Of a stretch of DNA of 64,000 bases, positions 16,841-29,816 are shown one piece after another. The notes beneath the pieces are model-generated. The model did no database searches, was not told the DNA's origin, and was given only the letters and a program-made list of their open reading frames with translations. Each line of letters starts with the position of its first letter. Positions within the stretch are counted from its first letter, which is position 1. The position numbers and the translations under genes are program-made. The DNA is from an uncultured Ardenticatenia bacterium (lineage in GTDB: Bacteria; Chloroflexota; Anaerolineae; 4572-78; NAK82): the NCBI GenBank assembly GCA_937127125.1, contig CAKZLO010000034.1, positions 329,257-393,256 on the forward strand, given 5' to 3'.

Positions 16841-19438
16841 ATGGAAGGCTATCATGTAACGGTAATCGTCGCTGATATTGTGGCAGCATGCATTACTTCG
16901 AGCTTAGGCCTCTATGCCTGGAAGCGACGTGACGCTCGTGGCGCTATACCCTTCATTTTCATCATGTTCTTTGCAGCGTGGTGGACACTAGCCAACGCGC
17001 TCTACCTGGCCAGCAATGATGTGCCTGCTCAGCTGTTCTGGCGACGGGTGATGTTCATTGCTGTGGACGCGGAGCCGGTAGCTTGGCTTTGCCTTGCACT
17101 TATGTATGCTGGGCACGAATCTTATTGCAGGCTGCGAAATGTGGCTTTGTTGGGAGTAGTGCCACTGGCAACCACCATTGTGCACTGGATACGCGACGCC
17201 GACCCGCGCTATGTTGCGTGGGTCGAGAGTCTAAACATTGGCCACGTGCCGCCCCCACTGTACATGCCCTACGACCTTTGGTTCGTCGTTCATGCGATCT
17301 ACTGTTACATTCTGATGGTGCTTGGCGCAGCAATTCTGATTCACACAGTGGTAGTGCGGCCCAGCAGGCTCCATCGAGGGCAAGCGGTGATGCTCATCGT
17401 CGGCGCGATTATCCCACTCATATTAGACTTGCCGATGACGTTGGGTTGGGTCTCCTTGCCCGGCTTCGAGACAGCTCCCTTTGCTTTGACGATCACAGGG
17501 CTATGTTGGACTTATGGGTTGTTTCACTACCATCTATTTGATATTGTACCGGCTGCGCATCATGTGGTACTTGCCAACCTACCGGATGGTCTGATCGTGT
17601 TGGATGCGCAGGATCGTATTGTGGAGCTGAATCCACCTGCCGAGCGCCTACTACATGTGCATGCAAATCGTGTAATCGGAGACGTTGTTTCCAATTATAT
17701 ACCTAATTGGCCTGAGCTAATGGCAATGGCACGCCTCGGACCTGAAGCAAATCTGACAGATGTTACGATTGTGTTGGGAAACGGTAAAGCGGAGCGACCC
17801 GGCAAGTATCTAGATGTGCGTGTGTCCCCTGTGTTTGACCGACGCGGCAACCTGAAAGGACGCGTGTTGCTGCTGCGCGATATAGATCGCCGTGTGCATC
17901 TGGAGCATGCTCTGCGGCGACGTACTGCTCAGCTGGGAGCGTTGAGCCGGCTTGTGTTGCAGCTCTCTACTGAGCTGGAGCTACCTTCTCTGCTGAGCTT
18001 TATTGCGGAACAAGCGATGCGGCTGCTGGAGGGTACAGGTGCCGGACTGGCCCTCTATCGCCCCGAGCACGATGCTTTGGAGTGGGTAACATCGGCCGGG
18101 ATGGAAGAATTCCTGCCTTCACTGGGCACCTTAATCCGACGTGGTGAGAACCTAGTAGGCACAGTGTGGGCGACCGGACAGCCCTTGGTTCTGGACAACT
18201 ATCTGGAGTGGCCCCATTGCCTGTTGGTACTACCGGACGATGCTCCATTTGGGGCAACAGTAGCTGTGCCGGTGAGTTGGGGTGGTGAGATGATGGATGT
18301 GTTGGTGGTTGTCTCCAGAGCGGTGGGCGTATACTCATCAGCCGATGCTGATGTGTTAGCTCTGTTTGCAGCTTATGCAGGGATCGCCATCCGCAATGCA
18401 CAACTAATTGAGTCACTGCGCAACAGCGAACGTCGCTTCAGAGAGCTGGCTGATGCATTACCGGATACGGTCTTTGAGACGGATCGGCTAGGAATGCTCA
18501 CTTTCTTGAACCGTTGTGGCTGTGAGACATTCGGCTACTCGCCTGCCGATCTAGCGCGCGGAGTCCATGTTCTCAAGCTGCTGGCGTGTGAGGAACGTCG
18601 ACGCGCCTGGCGTGAATTACAGGCAGCTGTTGCGGGCAATATGAACATTGAGCTTACGGGGATGCGCAAAGACGGTAGCACTTTTCCTGTGTTGGTGCAC
18701 TCAATCTCGGTAGTATCCAACGAGAGTGTGACCGGCTACCGCGGCATCGTGGTGGACATTACAAGTCGGAAAAAGATGGAGAGAGAACTGCAAGACTCAC
18801 TCCGTGAAAAGGAGATACTCCTGAAGGAAATTCATCACCGCGTTAAGAACAACCTGCAGATGATTTCAAGTTTGCTGTATCTTCAAGCAGAGACGGTCGG
18901 GAACGAACAAGTGCGTAATGCCTTAGAAGAGAGTCAGCAGCGCATCAGGTCGCTGGCATTGCTTCACGAGAAGATGTACCGTTCACAAGCGTTGGCTGCA
19001 GTGAATTTCGGCCAATACGTGGAGAGCCTTGTCTATCAGCTGCGCGACGTGTATCGCGTTCACGCTCACGCAGTGCGGGTTGTCTGCCAGATAGAGGACG
19101 TGCGTTTAAGCTTGGATGTGGCTATTCCATGCAGTTTGATTGTCAACGAACTCGTATCAAACGCTTTCAAGCACGCGTTTCCATCAGGTGATGGAGGTCG
19201 CCTCGCCTCAGGAGATCATCCAGAGGTGCGTGTTGAGCTGCGTTGTGTCAACAGGGGAGAATGCTCTGTGCTTGTAAGCGATAATGGTATAGGGCTGCCA
19301 GCAGATCTCAACCCGGAAACAGTTAATTCACTGGGGTTGCGTATTGTCACTCTATTGACGCGACAACTCCGTGGCACGCTGCGCATAGAACGTGACGGCG
19401 GCACGAAGTTCACCATTGTGTTCCCAATAAAACAATAA
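16841..19438 (+). CDS. Membrane sensor histidine kinase (7TM-PAS-GAF-PAS-HisKA_2)
   Basis: 865 residues. Order of parts: seven membrane helices (1-230, 7TMR-HisK-like), PAS (about 235-345, LPDGLIVLDAQDRIVELN), GAF (about 375-525), second PAS (about 530-645, LPDTVFETDRLG), HisKA_2 with the phospho-acceptor region EIHHRVKNNLQMISS (His at 665/666) and a HATPase domain (NELVSNAFKHAF, DNGIGLP) to the end. HisKA_2 kinases often signal to response regulators with RNA-binding or small output domains rather than to OmpR types. No regulator gene is adjacent, so its partner is elsewhere. Signal unknown; two PAS and one GAF domain could bind small ligands, heme or flavin, but no ligand residues can be assigned. 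Confidence 0.9.
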   Translation: MEGYHVTVIVADIVAACITSSLGLYAWKRRDARGAIPFIFIMFFAAWWTLANALYLASNDVPAQLFWRRVMFIAVDAEPVAWLCLALMYAGHESYCRLRNVALLGVVPLATTIVHWIRDADPRYVAWVESLNIGHVPPPLYMPYDLWFVVHAIYCYILMVLGAAILIHTVVVRPSRLHRGQAVMLIVGAIIPLILDLPMTLGWVSLPGFETAPFALTITGLCWTYGLFHYHLFDIVPAAHHVVLANLPDGLIVLDAQDRIVELNPPAERLLHVHANRVIGDVVSNYIPNWPELMAMARLGPEANLTDVTIVLGNGKAERPGKYLDVRVSPVFDRRGNLKGRVLLLRDIDRRVHLEHALRRRTAQLGALSRLVLQLSTELELPSLLSFIAEQAMRLLEGTGAGLALYRPEHDALEWVTSAGMEEFLPSLGTLIRRGENLVGTVWATGQPLVLDNYLEWPHCLLVLPDDAPFGATVAVPVSWGGEMMDVLVVVSRAVGVYSSADADVLALFAAYAGIAIRNAQLIESLRNSERRFRELADALPDTVFETDRLGMLTFLNRCGCETFGYSPADLARGVHVLKLLACEERRRAWRELQAAVAGNMNIELTGMRKDGSTFPVLVHSISVVSNESVTGYRGIVVDITSRKKMERELQDSLREKEILLKEIHHRVKNNLQMISSLLYLQAETVGNEQVRNALEESQQRIRSLALLHEKMYRSQALAAVNFGQYVESLVYQLRDVYRVHAHAVRVVCQIEDVRLSLDVAIPCSLIVNELVSNAFKHAFPSGDGGRLASGDHPEVRVELRCVNRGECSVLVSDNGIGLPADLNPETVNSLGLRIVTLLTRQLRGTLRIERDGGTKFTIVFPIKQ

Positions 19439-25511: not shown

Positions 25512-25955
25512 CGGCCTGCATACCTCGAACCAGCGATTGACTGGCTGGTATGCATCTTAACACGGTGCCACAGGTGTGTCAATCTGAGAGCACCGCGAGA
25601 ACCGCAAGACTGACCTTCGGCACCATACAAGAGGATGATGTTACCACGAGCAAATGCTAGAGGATGGAAAGCAGTAAACCAGATAGTTAAGGAATCTGTG
25701 CTGTTAGATAAACGCACTCGGTGGGTCGCACCAAGCTATATTGACATAAGTTAAATCGCTGGAGGAAACCTGATCTCGCCTTGAGGGTGGTATATCCCTT
25801 TCATAGGAGATTCGTAGCCCGAGAGAGGTGAGCTAATTTTGGAGAAGAAGAGTGCAGCAGTAGAATGTTAAGAGAGACATCAGTAGAGTATTTGGATCTC
25901 ATGTTGGGGCTAAATATGTTCCTTGGTGATATACCTATGTGGACCGGGAAGGTGT
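25512..25955. other. Divergent intergenic region between recG and the two-component operon
   Basis: About 440 bases without a convincing gene. It must hold promoters for recG (leftward) and the response regulator (rightward). A consensus TTGACA occurs at 25741-25746 on the plus strand, but no good -10 follows at the right distance. A 92-codon frame on the minus strand here has no protein-like features. Confidence 0.4.
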
Positions 25956-26639
25956 ATGCCCAGTCGAAAGATATTGGTAATTGACGACGAACAGAACATT
26001 GTGGACCTGGTAGCCACCTATTTGCGCAAAGAAGGGTATCAGGTCCATACGGCTACAGATGGTGTCTCCGGGCTGAAGGCGGCGCGCTCCATCAAACCAG
26101 ATCTGGTGGTGTTGGATATCATGTTGCCTGGCATGGACGGTCTGGACCTGCTAGCGCAGCTGCGTCGGGAGTCGGACGTCTACGTGATATTGCTGACCGC
26201 CAGGTCGGATGAAACCGACAAGATTGTTGGTCTGACGGTGGGTGCTGATGATTACATCACCAAGCCGTTCAGTCCAAGGGAATTGGTGGCCCGTATCAAG
26301 GCGGCATTGCGTCGACTCCATGCAGGAGCGGGTACAAGATCTGCCACGCTCGCCTTTCGCCATGTACGCATCGATCCCGGCAGCAGGCAGGTCTGGGTAA
26401 ATGAAAAGCCAGTGATGCTGACTGCTATTGAGTTTGATCTGTTGCATGCGTTAGCTGAGCGTCGTGGTGTGGTGTTGAGCCGCGAGCAACTGCTGGAACG
26501 GGTGTGGGGCTATGATTTTTATGGAGAAGAGCGGGTAGTAGATGTCCACATCGGTCATATTCGCTCGAAGCTCGGCAATGAGCGTTTTATCGTGACAGTG
26601 CGCGGGGTGGGTTATCGATTCGAGGATGAAGATGTCTAA
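25956..26639 (+). CDS. OmpR/PhoB-family response regulator
   Basis: 227 residues. Receiver domain at 5-120 with acidic pair VIDDEQ, phospho-acceptor D54 in VVLDIMLPGMDG, and the conserved Lys in YITKPFSPREL; winged-helix output domain at about 130-225 ending in RFIVTVRGVGYRFEDE. The start is ATG 25956, with GGGAAGG just upstream, rather than 25923. Its last codons overlap the kinase gene by 14 bases. Probable target: the 11-base CTT(C/T)AA repeats in front of the SHOCT genes, as explained in that entry. Confidence 0.93.
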   Translation: MPSRKILVIDDEQNIVDLVATYLRKEGYQVHTATDGVSGLKAARSIKPDLVVLDIMLPGMDGLDLLAQLRRESDVYVILLTARSDETDKIVGLTVGADDYITKPFSPRELVARIKAALRRLHAGAGTRSATLAFRHVRIDPGSRQVWVNEKPVMLTAIEFDLLHALAERRGVVLSREQLLERVWGYDFYGEERVVDVHIGHIRSKLGNERFIVTVRGVGYRFEDEDV

Positions 26640-27774
26640 TCTGATTCGCTATGTTCGTCGCCGCTTGGGGTGGAAACTGTTTGTTTCTCACTTCATTGTT
26701 GTTCTTGTTGGCATGGTTGTACTCGTTTCGGCTATGGAATACTCTATGCCTAACGCCTTTGAACACCATATGGCGGCAATGGCTGCAGCAATGCAAGCGG
26801 ACTCACCAGCTTTGGCAAAAGACCTTTTTACCAACTTTCATCGGGCCGTGAACGAATCGCTGGCATTTTCGCTCCCGGCTGCTTTCTTGGTTGCCATCGT
26901 GGTGAGCACACTGGTCAGTCGCCAAATTGTGAAGCCAGTGCGTTGTATCATGATCACCAGTCGGCGTATTGCTGAAGGCCACTACAGTGACCGGGTAGGA
27001 TTACCCCAGTTGCATAACCAGGACAATCTGGATGAACTGGGCCATTTGGCGATCAGCTTTAACCAGATGGCCGCCCGACTTGAGCAGATCGAGACCACCC
27101 GACGGCAGCTGATCGGTGATGTGGCTCATGAGCTGCGTACGCCTTTGACCACGATCAAAGGCTACCTAGAGGGACTGATGGACAATGTGGTGCCAGCTGA
27201 CGCCTCTACATTTGAGCGTATGTACCACGAAGCTGAGCGCCTACAACGACTGGTCCACGACCTACAGGAGCTCAGCCGTGTTGAGGGCGGTGCCATTGAA
27301 ATGCGTCCTCAGCCCATTACGGTGGCGCAGCTGGTTAACACAGCAGTTGCCCGCCTGAATTACCAATTCAAGGAAAAAGAGGTGGAATTGGCGACTGAGG
27401 TGTCGGAAAATCTGCCCGCTGTCCGGGCCGACGAAGGACGCATCGGCCAAGTATTGCTCAACCTGCTTGGCAATGCGTTGCAGTATACACCTTCCGGTGG
27501 CCGGGTATTGATTTCAGCCCGCCAGTGCGGGGCCGAAATACAAATCAAAGTATCTGATTCCGGTATTGGTATCAGTGCGGAGCACCTGCCGCTCATTTTC
27601 ACGCACTTTTACCGTGTTGACCGTTCCCGATCGCGCACTGGTGGCGGAACCGGCGTTGGTCTCACTATCGCTCGCCACTTAGTGGAGGCGCATGGGGGCC
27701 GCATCTGGGCAGAGAGCGCCGGACCGGGCATGGGAAGCACCTTCACCTTCACTCTGCCCGTTGCCTCGCTCTAG
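26626..27774 (+). CDS. Two-component sensor histidine kinase
   Basis: 382 residues. First membrane helix about 17-38, a short extracytoplasmic loop rich in Met and His (MPNAFEHHMAAMAAAMQ), second helix about 80-105, HAMP, HisKA with H168 in DVAHELRTPLTTIKG, HATPase with LLNLLGNALQYTP and GTGVGLTIARHL. Typical EnvZ-like layout. The Met/His-rich loop is compatible with sensing copper, silver or another soft metal, but this is only an inference. Translationally coupled to the regulator by overlap. Confidence 0.93.
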   Translation: MKMSNLIRYVRRRLGWKLFVSHFIVVLVGMVVLVSAMEYSMPNAFEHHMAAMAAAMQADSPALAKDLFTNFHRAVNESLAFSLPAAFLVAIVVSTLVSRQIVKPVRCIMITSRRIAEGHYSDRVGLPQLHNQDNLDELGHLAISFNQMAARLEQIETTRRQLIGDVAHELRTPLTTIKGYLEGLMDNVVPADASTFERMYHEAERLQRLVHDLQELSRVEGGAIEMRPQPITVAQLVNTAVARLNYQFKEKEVELATEVSENLPAVRADEGRIGQVLLNLLGNALQYTPSGGRVLISARQCGAEIQIKVSDSGIGISAEHLPLIFTHFYRVDRSRSRTGGGTGVGLTIARHLVEAHGGRIWAESAGPGMGSTFTFTLPVASL

Positions 27775-27961: not shown

Positions 27962-28249
27962 ATGATGGGTTTTTGGGGTGGCTTGTGCAATGGACTTGCG
28001 GCCTACAATCCGGTTGGGGTGATCATTGGCTGGCTTATTCCTGTCGGCTTGATAACCTGCCTGGTGCTGTTAGTAATCTGGTTGGTGCGCCGGGCGAGTG
28101 GCCCCGTAGCAACAGACACGACCGAAAAGAGCACAGCCGGGAAATCTCTCTTTACCAACAGGTCGGCCAAGGAAGTGCTCCAGCTGCGTTACGCCAGGGG
28201 TGAGATCACGCGTGAGCAGTACTTGCAGATGCGCGATGATCTGGCCTGA
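27962..28249 (+). CDS. Small SHOCT-domain membrane protein
   Basis: 95 residues. One membrane helix (about 18-42, GVIIGWLIPVGLITCLVLLV) and a C-terminal SHOCT domain, VLQLRYARGEITREQYLQM. SHOCT is a short helical motif at the ends of many small bacterial proteins, thought to mediate oligomer formation or binding. First gene after the operator. Its neighbour has the same plan, so the two may form a hetero-oligomer. Two adjacent Met codons (27962, 27965) could serve as start. Confidence 0.85.
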   Translation: MMGFWGGLCNGLAAYNPVGVIIGWLIPVGLITCLVLLVIWLVRRASGPVATDTTEKSTAGKSLFTNRSAKEVLQLRYARGEITREQYLQMRDDLA

Positions 28250-28263
28250 AAAGGAGGTCATCT

Positions 28264-28491
28264 ATGATGGGTTTCGGCGCAATTGGGTTGATACTTATGA
28301 TCCTGACGTGGGGGACGTTAATTGTGTTGGCACTCTGGATTATTGGCAGACTTTTTCCCCAAGCTGGTAGCTTCACTGCGCCCACCAATAGTCGCTTGAC
28401 AGCATTGCAGATCGTCGCGATGCGTTATGCAAGGGGCGAAATTACTCGCGAACAGTACGAGTTGATGAGTGAGGATCTAGGACGGGAATGA
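28264..28491 (+). CDS. Second small SHOCT-domain membrane protein
   Basis: 75 residues. One membrane helix (about 5-30, AIGLILMILTWGTLIVLALW) and SHOCT motif VAMRYARGEITREQYELM, clearly paralogous to the preceding gene. Strong AAGGAGG 7 bases upstream. The gap to the previous stop is 14 bases, so both are on one transcript. Confidence 0.85.
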   Translation: MMGFGAIGLILMILTWGTLIVLALWIIGRLFPQAGSFTAPTNSRLTALQIVAMRYARGEITREQYELMSEDLGRE

Positions 28492-28661: not shown

Positions 28662-29816
28662 ATGTCTAGAAGGATCATCTTTGGTGGTGCACTGCTATTG
28701 GGCCTGGTCGCCATAGCAGCGTTGCTTGCAGGCGTGACCGTATTACCGGTCCGGGCCCAAATGCCCTGGGGCAGTGGCTGGATGGGCCAAGCCCATATGG
28801 GCAGCTGGGTACCATGGAGTGGTTGGAGAGCAGGAGACGGCTACCCCCGAGCTTACACAGACACCACCCCGTATGGCTTTGGTCCATTGGGTATGATGGG
28901 TGGCTGGGCGGGATGTCCTATGATGTCAGGTGGCTGGGCAGGGGTCGACCCTGAAGCCACGCCGCTCACACTGACACAGGCGCGTGAGAACGTCGAGGAA
29001 TTCCTGAAAGCGACAGGTAACAACGACCTCGAGCTGGCCGAAGTGATGGAATTCACGGGTAACTTCTACGCCGAAGTGCGCGAGAAGAGCACTGGCATTG
29101 GTGCGTTTGAGCTACTGGTGGATCGCTATACTGGTCAGGTTTACCCCGAGCCGGGCCCCAATATGATGTGGAATCTCAAATATGGGCACATGGGCGGCTG
29201 GGGCATGATGCGTTGGCGCGGAAGTACCGAGGTGACTATGCCGGTATCACCTGACCAAGCAGTCGAACAGGCACAGAAATACTTGGATCAGTTCAACGCT
29301 GGTCTGAAGGCCAACGACGCCGAGCCTTTCTATGGCTACTATACACTCCATGTCGAGAGAGGCGGCAAGGTAACTGGCATGCTCAGCGTCAACGGCTACA
29401 CTGGCGCTGTATGGTATCACCATTGGCACGGTGACTTCATTGCAATGGAGGAGTTGGAAGAGGAACCTTCTTCTGGTATCAGTGAACCGCGTCTGGTAGT
29501 CGATCGCGATCTGGTGGACTTGGGAACCTTGCCTTTTAACGAACGGGTCACAGCAGAGTTCCGGGTGCAGAACGTGGGTGGCAGTGACTTGATCATCCTG
29601 GACAAACCGATCATTGAGCTGGTTGAGGGCTGCTGACCGCCCAAAGAAGCGACCGTCAGTTCGACGGTGATAGCCCCTGGTCAGAGTGCGGTGGTCTCTT
29701 TACACTTTACTATGCCGCCAGGTATGGGTGGACCCCATCGGTTTGACATCCGTCTGCGCACCAACGACCCACGCCAACCCGAGAAAGTGCTGATCGTCAA
29801 GTCAGACTGGCGCTGA
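28662..29816 (+). CDS. Candidate selenoprotein: Met/His-rich PepSY-like protein with DUF1573-like Cys-Sec domain
   Basis: 384 residues when the in-frame UGA at 29634-29636 is read as selenocysteine (residue 325). Signal peptide or anchor at 1-33; Met/Gly/Trp/His-rich segment at about 34-95; two PepSY-like repeats, about 100-165 and 190-255; C-terminal immunoglobulin-like domain of DUF1573 type from about 275. Reading stops at EGC in a normal frame, yet the next 59 codons continue the domain without interruption: PPKEATVSST, PGMGGPHRFDIRLRTNDP, ending VLIVKSDWR and TGA 29814. The family motif known to me is Gly-Cys-Cys-Pro-Pro; here the second Cys is UGA. A hairpin sits 21 bases downstream. 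The Met/His-rich parts suggest binding of copper or another metal outside the membrane, perhaps with the Cys-Sec pair. Annotated naively it would end at 29636 (324 residues). Confidence 0.82.
29634..29668 (+). promoter_or_regulatory. UGA (Sec) codon and SECIS-like hairpin in the PepSY/DUF1573 gene
   Basis: UGA 29634-29636 is followed by a perfect 6-bp stem ACCGTC (29652-29657)/GACGGT (29663-29668) with a 5-base loop AGTTC that has G at its second position. The loop begins 21 bases after the UGA, within the range accepted for bacterial SECIS elements recognised by SelB. Lower pairing GC/GC (29649-29650 with 29672-29673) is weak. Confidence 0.72.

Follow-up and report, generated by a model that had tools for sequence, protein, structure and literature searches.

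A predicted selenoprotein family with a vicinal Cys-Sec pair in a DUF1573-type Ig-like domain, mostly from Chloroflexota

The 64,000-nucleotide stretch of DNA analysed here (the window; an uncultured Ardenticatenia bacterium, assembly GCA_937127125.1) holds a gene whose frame meets a UGA in the middle of a domain, which raises the question whether that codon ends a truncated protein or encodes selenocysteine (Sec), and what the longer protein would do. The frame reads ATG 28662 ... GGC TGC TGA CCG CCC ... TGA 29814. Its in-frame UGA at 29634, codon 325, stands between Cys and Pro-Pro, and 59 codons follow before the frame is closed by TGA at 29814-29816. All of this is exactly as described in an earlier note on the sequence, whereas calling ORFs with the standard code yields an ORF of 324 aa. 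The same note had placed the UGA inside a DUF1573-like domain that resumes after it, and this was borne out by two Pfam models that both score across the UGA above their cut-offs: PF22544 (39 bits, cut-off 25.5) and DUF1573 itself, PF07610 (31.4 bits, cut-off 26.1), although one tested member of the family falls under the latter cut-off with 19.3 bits. The features of the gene and its surroundings are collected in Table 1.

Table 1. Position, strand and basis of the features assigned in and around the window gene.
Feature	Position	Strand	Basis or remark
OmpR-type response regulator	25923..26639	+	domain search
Histidine kinase (HAMP, HisKA, HATPase)	26626..27774	+	domain search
SHOCT-like small membrane protein	27962..28249	+	just below Pfam cut-off
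Second SHOCT-like small membrane protein	28264..28491	+	just below Pfam cut-off
Predicted selenoprotein gene	28662..29816	+	384 residues, Sec at 325, stop TGA 29814-29816; homology across UGA
N-terminal hydrophobic helix, residues 3-27, signal/anchor	28668..28742	+	predicted helix 3-27 and sequence
Disordered Met/His/Gly/Trp-rich segment, residues 28-94	28743..28943	+	pLDDT <50 for 28-94
First PepSY-like repeat, residues ~100-162	28959..29147	+	helix and strands in model; weak YPEB_PepSY match, residues 100-133
Second PepSY-like repeat, residues 194-250, then conserved HxWHG	29241..29411	+	18.6 bits vs cut-off 24; fold; conservation
DUF1573/ASH-type Ig-like domain, residues 276-377	29487..29792	+	PF22544 and PF07610 above cut-off; AlphaFold2 pLDDT 94.9; PDB matches
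Cys324-Sec325 pair (TGC TGA)	29631..29636	+	among matches TGA 98, TGC/TGT 10
SECIS hairpin (predicted)	29652..29668	+	6-bp stem, loop AGUUC 29658-29662; covariation in 69 distinct Sec sequences; fits published bSECIS model
Met351-x3-Met355-x3-His359, candidate metal ligands with Cys-Sec	29712..29738	+	24/25 loci found without motif

With the read-through protein as query, a search of 400 genomes from the phylum found the domain in about 20 besides the window's, with one TGA interrupting the frame at the corresponding position; the alignment of these relatives keeps EGC[UGA]PP and a conserved C-terminal half. A wide scan that covered the genomes of 84,980 species gave 142 relatives, 80 of which were read, and a tblastn search of plasmids gave no match to the domain. 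Among the matches read, the codon after Gly-Cys is TGA in 98 and TGC or TGT in 10, and residues other than Sec or Cys occur there only in distant canonical SCGCT proteins. After removal of duplicates, 82 distinct Sec cores and 10 Cys cores remain (92 distinct loci); Cys at position 325 in ten loci is what would be expected of a Cys-Cys-Pro-Pro family. The nearest relative of the window gene, L079 from an Ardenticatenia MAG, differs from it at 7/2/24 sites in codon positions 1/2/3 downstream of the UGA and at 8/5/30 upstream, a much similar pattern; 51 of the 59 residues past the UGA are identical, and identity drops to 34% in the stretch just beyond the stop. The codon-position pattern and the loss of identity beyond the stop indicate, far beyond chance, that the region after the UGA is coding sequence under protein-level constraint. 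Homologues thus neither end at the UGA nor lose conservation after it, two of the outcomes that the earlier note had named as fatal to its proposal.

Bacterial SECIS elements are modelled as a stem of 4-16 bp with a loop of 3-9 nt that carries a G in loop positions 1-2 and lies 16-37 nt from the UGA (PMC13188914). The 6-bp hairpin with a 5-base loop proposed earlier fits this model: its stem (29652-29657 paired with 29663-29668) begins 15 nt downstream of UGA 29634, the loop is AGUUC, and 21 nt separate UGA and loop. This spacing is fixed at 18 nt in most Sec forms and is 21 nt in the window gene and L079, which have one extra residue. Across 69 distinct Sec sequences, 98.6% of the stem cells are paired, five of the six stem pairs show two-sided changes, and the covariation score is 0.558, compared with 0.268 for shuffled and at most 0.302 for slid alignments. 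Part of this pairing could come from codon conservation; the same stem positions, however, are only 40-60% paired in the ten Cys forms.

The machinery for Sec insertion is present in the window's genome (95% complete), which encodes tRNA-Sec (selC, 71.9 bits), selB (354 in all), selA (557) and selD (385), so that all four genes named for checking were found and the absence of selB and selC, a further outcome counted against the proposal, is not the case. The selD gene (G000:C25:17176-18111, L160) has an in-frame TGA within A-A-G-U-A-S-K-L, presumably at the place where SelD is known to have its catalytic Sec or Cys, and its product is likely a selenoprotein itself. Among carriers of the domain with completeness of 90% or more and contamination of 5% or less, all 13 have tRNA-Sec, and in one genome the tRNA-Sec gene (G177:C15, 13168-13262) lies on the same contig as the Sec-domain gene (17134-17466), about 4 kb away. 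The selB gene occurs in 18 of 21 carriers, yet also in 311 of the 400 genomes of the phylum sample, so its presence alone is weak evidence. Neither selB nor tRNA-Sec was found in two of the 21 carriers, both incomplete genomes (82-89%), nor at two of 12 further Sec loci. The expectation that a genome with a Cys form would be without the Sec machinery was rejected: selB or selC is still present in 7 of the 10 (L088, L094, L098 and L099 are among the Cys-form loci) and both are missing in only 3, so the Cys form is no simple tracker of machinery loss.

Two other readings of the codon have to be set against these data. If the UGA were a true stop, the product would be the truncated 324-residue protein that standard-code ORF calling returns, and the downstream sequence a pseudogene remnant or sequencing artefact; the same UGA in 82 distinct loci, the open and constrained frame behind it, the covarying hairpin and the Cys forms in ten loci speak so strongly against this very improbable reading that the comparative data rule it out. 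A genome-wide reassignment of UGA, for example to Trp or Gly, would explain one in-frame UGA that is read through, and is more improbable still: the window gene itself terminates in TGA, homologues carry Cys at the UGA codon, and selA, selB, selC and selD are in the genome, so that Cys exchange and the use of TGA as stop rule it out. Selenocysteine at UGA 29634, in a family that conserves Cys or Sec at this position, is therefore predicted with high confidence.

The domain around the Cys-Sec pair is modelled by AlphaFold2 as an all-beta fold (pLDDT 94.9, pTM 0.85). Its fold matches in the PDB are HYDIN, the ASH domain of OCRL and the P. gingivalis protein 2qsv, and a PDB sequence search matches only HYDIN/CFAP74-type repeats. 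In domain numbering, the model places Cys-Sec in the loop after strand 49-54, and Met83, Met87 and His91 at or near the turn that links strands 74-81 and 89-99; from Ig topology, both elements would lie on the same side or end of the sandwich, and we infer that they form one site. Because M[HPS]x[GD]M[GD]G[PM]H served as the pattern of the wide scan, Met/His conservation in those 80 loci is biased, and it was counted only from the 25 loci found without this pattern, 24 of which have M-x3-M-x3-H.

Canonical DUF1573 (PF07610) and HYDIN/ASH (PF22544) proteins share the fold of the window domain, but canonical DUF1573 members in the examined genomes carry SCGCT or TCGCT and have neither Cys-Sec or Cys-Cys-Pro-Pro nor M-x3-M-x3-H. 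A DUF1573 selenoprotein of Olavius symbionts is already listed, with the motif UGC (PMC9312934, PMC13188914), and is probably what the NCBIfam model NF041425 (OS_HP2_seleno) describes. It has in common with the window family the DUF1573 Ig-like superfamily and a Sec near the same loop; its Sec, however, would sit at the first Cys of canonical S-C-G-C-T, whereas that of the window family comes after the second Cys position, in G-C-U-P-P rather than UGC. The window protein scores 18.5 bits and the best family member about 37 bits against NF041425, far from its curated cut-off of 100 and below the 60-76 bits of canonical Cys DUF1573 proteins; none of the NCBIfam models passes its cut-off on the window family, and the deep-Sep paper has no mention of DUF1573. 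The claim that no described selenoprotein has this layout thus holds for the Cys-Sec site and the family, which appear to be new with some residual chance of a prior description, and fails for the fold, for which Sec has been listed before, at another site. A vicinal Cys-Sec (CU) motif with presumed soft-metal binding is also found in the metal-related selenoproteins SaoL (MerB-like), CopZ-like form 2 and MbdU (PMC13188914); these are other families by name and model, and the comparison was made via the review table only.

The N-terminal 270 residues of the window protein comprise the signal or anchor helix, the disordered Met/His-rich segment and the PepSY-like repeats. The helix predicts an extracytoplasmic protein. 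Two PepSY-like repeats and Met/His-rich segments had been claimed before; the predicted helix-sheet repeats do resemble PepSY in a model of moderate quality (pLDDT 68.9), but the Pfam scores stay under the cut-off (PF03413, 18.6 against 24 bits, and weaker still for the first repeat). For conservation, the PepSY part was aligned by itself. Among the loci read, a single gene holds both PepSY and the Sec domain only in the window and in L079, and in most relatives the Sec domain is a separate membrane-anchored protein. The PepSY half thus lies outside the Cys-Sec domain family. L080 has the two as distinct genes: its Sec-domain gene has a start and a membrane anchor of its own and lies about 240 bp past the end of a PepSY gene. 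Both genes lie within a few kb of each other at several other loci; since the two are neighbours elsewhere, the window gene seems to have arisen by fusion of a pair that was already linked.

Upstream of the window gene, the two-component pair and two SHOCT proteins noted before were recovered, the latter slightly short of the cut-off (26.1 and 24.5 against 27). Across the family, copper or electron-transfer genes lie within 5 kb at 70 of the 92 distinct loci and are absent at 22; these counts are approximate, as they come from simple ORF calling. The recurrent neighbours, mostly on the same strand as the Sec-domain gene, are a cupredoxin, either by itself or joined to cytochrome c, that has a CuA-like C-x3-C-x3-H-x2-M motif (55/92 loci), a PCYCGC lipoprotein within 5 kb (45/92), a Fer4_5 polyferredoxin (36/92), a P-type ATPase (22/92) and a multicopper oxidase (9/92). 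The row at L080 runs PepSY, Sec-domain selenoprotein, PCYCGC, cupredoxin, polyferredoxin. In the window's genome we found no match to the COX2 domain and none to PCYCGC, the latter a weaker absence since that search matched no control genome; the association with a copper operon is hence borrowed from relatives.

What the protein does can be proposed from conservation and neighbourhood, which support the suggested extracytoplasmic metal-binding or redox protein with a Cys-Sec pair as a predicted role. SelB and tRNA-Sec would decode UGA 29634 as selenocysteine, with the hairpin as SECIS on comparative evidence, to give a membrane-anchored or secreted selenoprotein. Outside the cytoplasm, its Cys-Sec/Met/His site would bind Cu(I) or keep CuA-type thiols reduced, and hand copper to, or protect, the neighbouring cupredoxins. 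Such extracytoplasmic soft-metal chemistry (Cu(I) binding or CuA-thiol protection) seems to us the likeliest role, at slightly less than an even chance. M-x3-M-x3-H in 24/25 loci and the copper and electron-transfer neighbours tentatively point to copper. The fuller picture, a widespread selenoprotein family with a Cys-Sec and Met/His copper site on an Ig scaffold that helps to metallate or protect CuA-type cupredoxin/cytochrome complexes in Chloroflexota and was recruited by PepSY fusion in the window lineage, is more doubtful. In the window organism, homeostasis of copper or another soft metal would be favoured over CuA assembly because no COX2 was found, the Met/His-rich PepSY part is fused, and a two-component system is present.

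A purely redox function competes with this proposal: the Cys-Sec pair could be an extracytoplasmic catalyst, a thiol/selenol oxidoreductase or a peroxide or sulfur scavenger without a metal role, with cupredoxin, cytochrome and polyferredoxin giving or taking electrons. A vicinal Cys-Sec pair is a plausible selenenylsulfide, cytochrome c and Fer4_5 membrane proteins are among the neighbours, and a redox function is ascribed to most selenoproteins (PMC9312934). The domain, however, is an all-beta ASH/PapD-type Ig domain rather than a thioredoxin-like fold, and a bare selenenylsulfide needs no conserved Met/His, so we hold this function to be a serious but lesser possibility. Binding or detoxification of another soft metal or metalloid (Hg, Ag, As) would put the protein beside the CU-motif metal selenoproteins above and suit the two-component system upstream of the window gene, but is unlikely, as the recurrent neighbour families identified are copper and electron-transfer families and not mer or ars. 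On balance, this is probably a selenoprotein family without an earlier name that handles copper or acts in redox chemistry.

Most members of the family come from Chloroflexota; others are in MAGs that carry the labels NC10/Methylomirabilota, Rokubacteria or Actinomycetota. With it, the selenoproteins gain a well-supported family, whose genes ordinary annotation probably cuts short. To find Sec in an Ig-like domain, as part of a vicinal Cys-Sec pair beside conserved Met and His, would be unusual. The genes around it allow a role of selenium in copper handling to be put directly to the test, and the natural Cys forms offer controls.

Some loci depart from the common pattern. The Sec domain of L068 (G015:C277) is divergent: it has S-C-U-P-Q, lacks the Met/His motif and may be a separate subfamily, while the same genome also has a typical copy. 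The domain copy at L072 (4950-5189; G005:C1:3108780) is partial and decayed, lacks the Cys-Sec site and is likely a pseudogene. A frameshifted second copy by a contig end (L069, 10001-10347; G112:C1 near 4125188) matches L059 near the contig start, a duplication that is probably the untrimmed overlap of a circular contig. Among the neighbours, PCYCGC (OS_HP4, PF13798) is an extracytoplasmic Cys-rich protein, unrelated in sequence to the window family, that sometimes has Sec itself. The PCYCGC proteins of L080 (just downstream of 5336), L084 and L093 show an in-frame UGA in place of the Cys of their relatives (HAFG-U-S/T-IC) and are likely, by their sequences, a second selenoprotein beside the first, in agreement with the listed OS_HP4 UxxC family.
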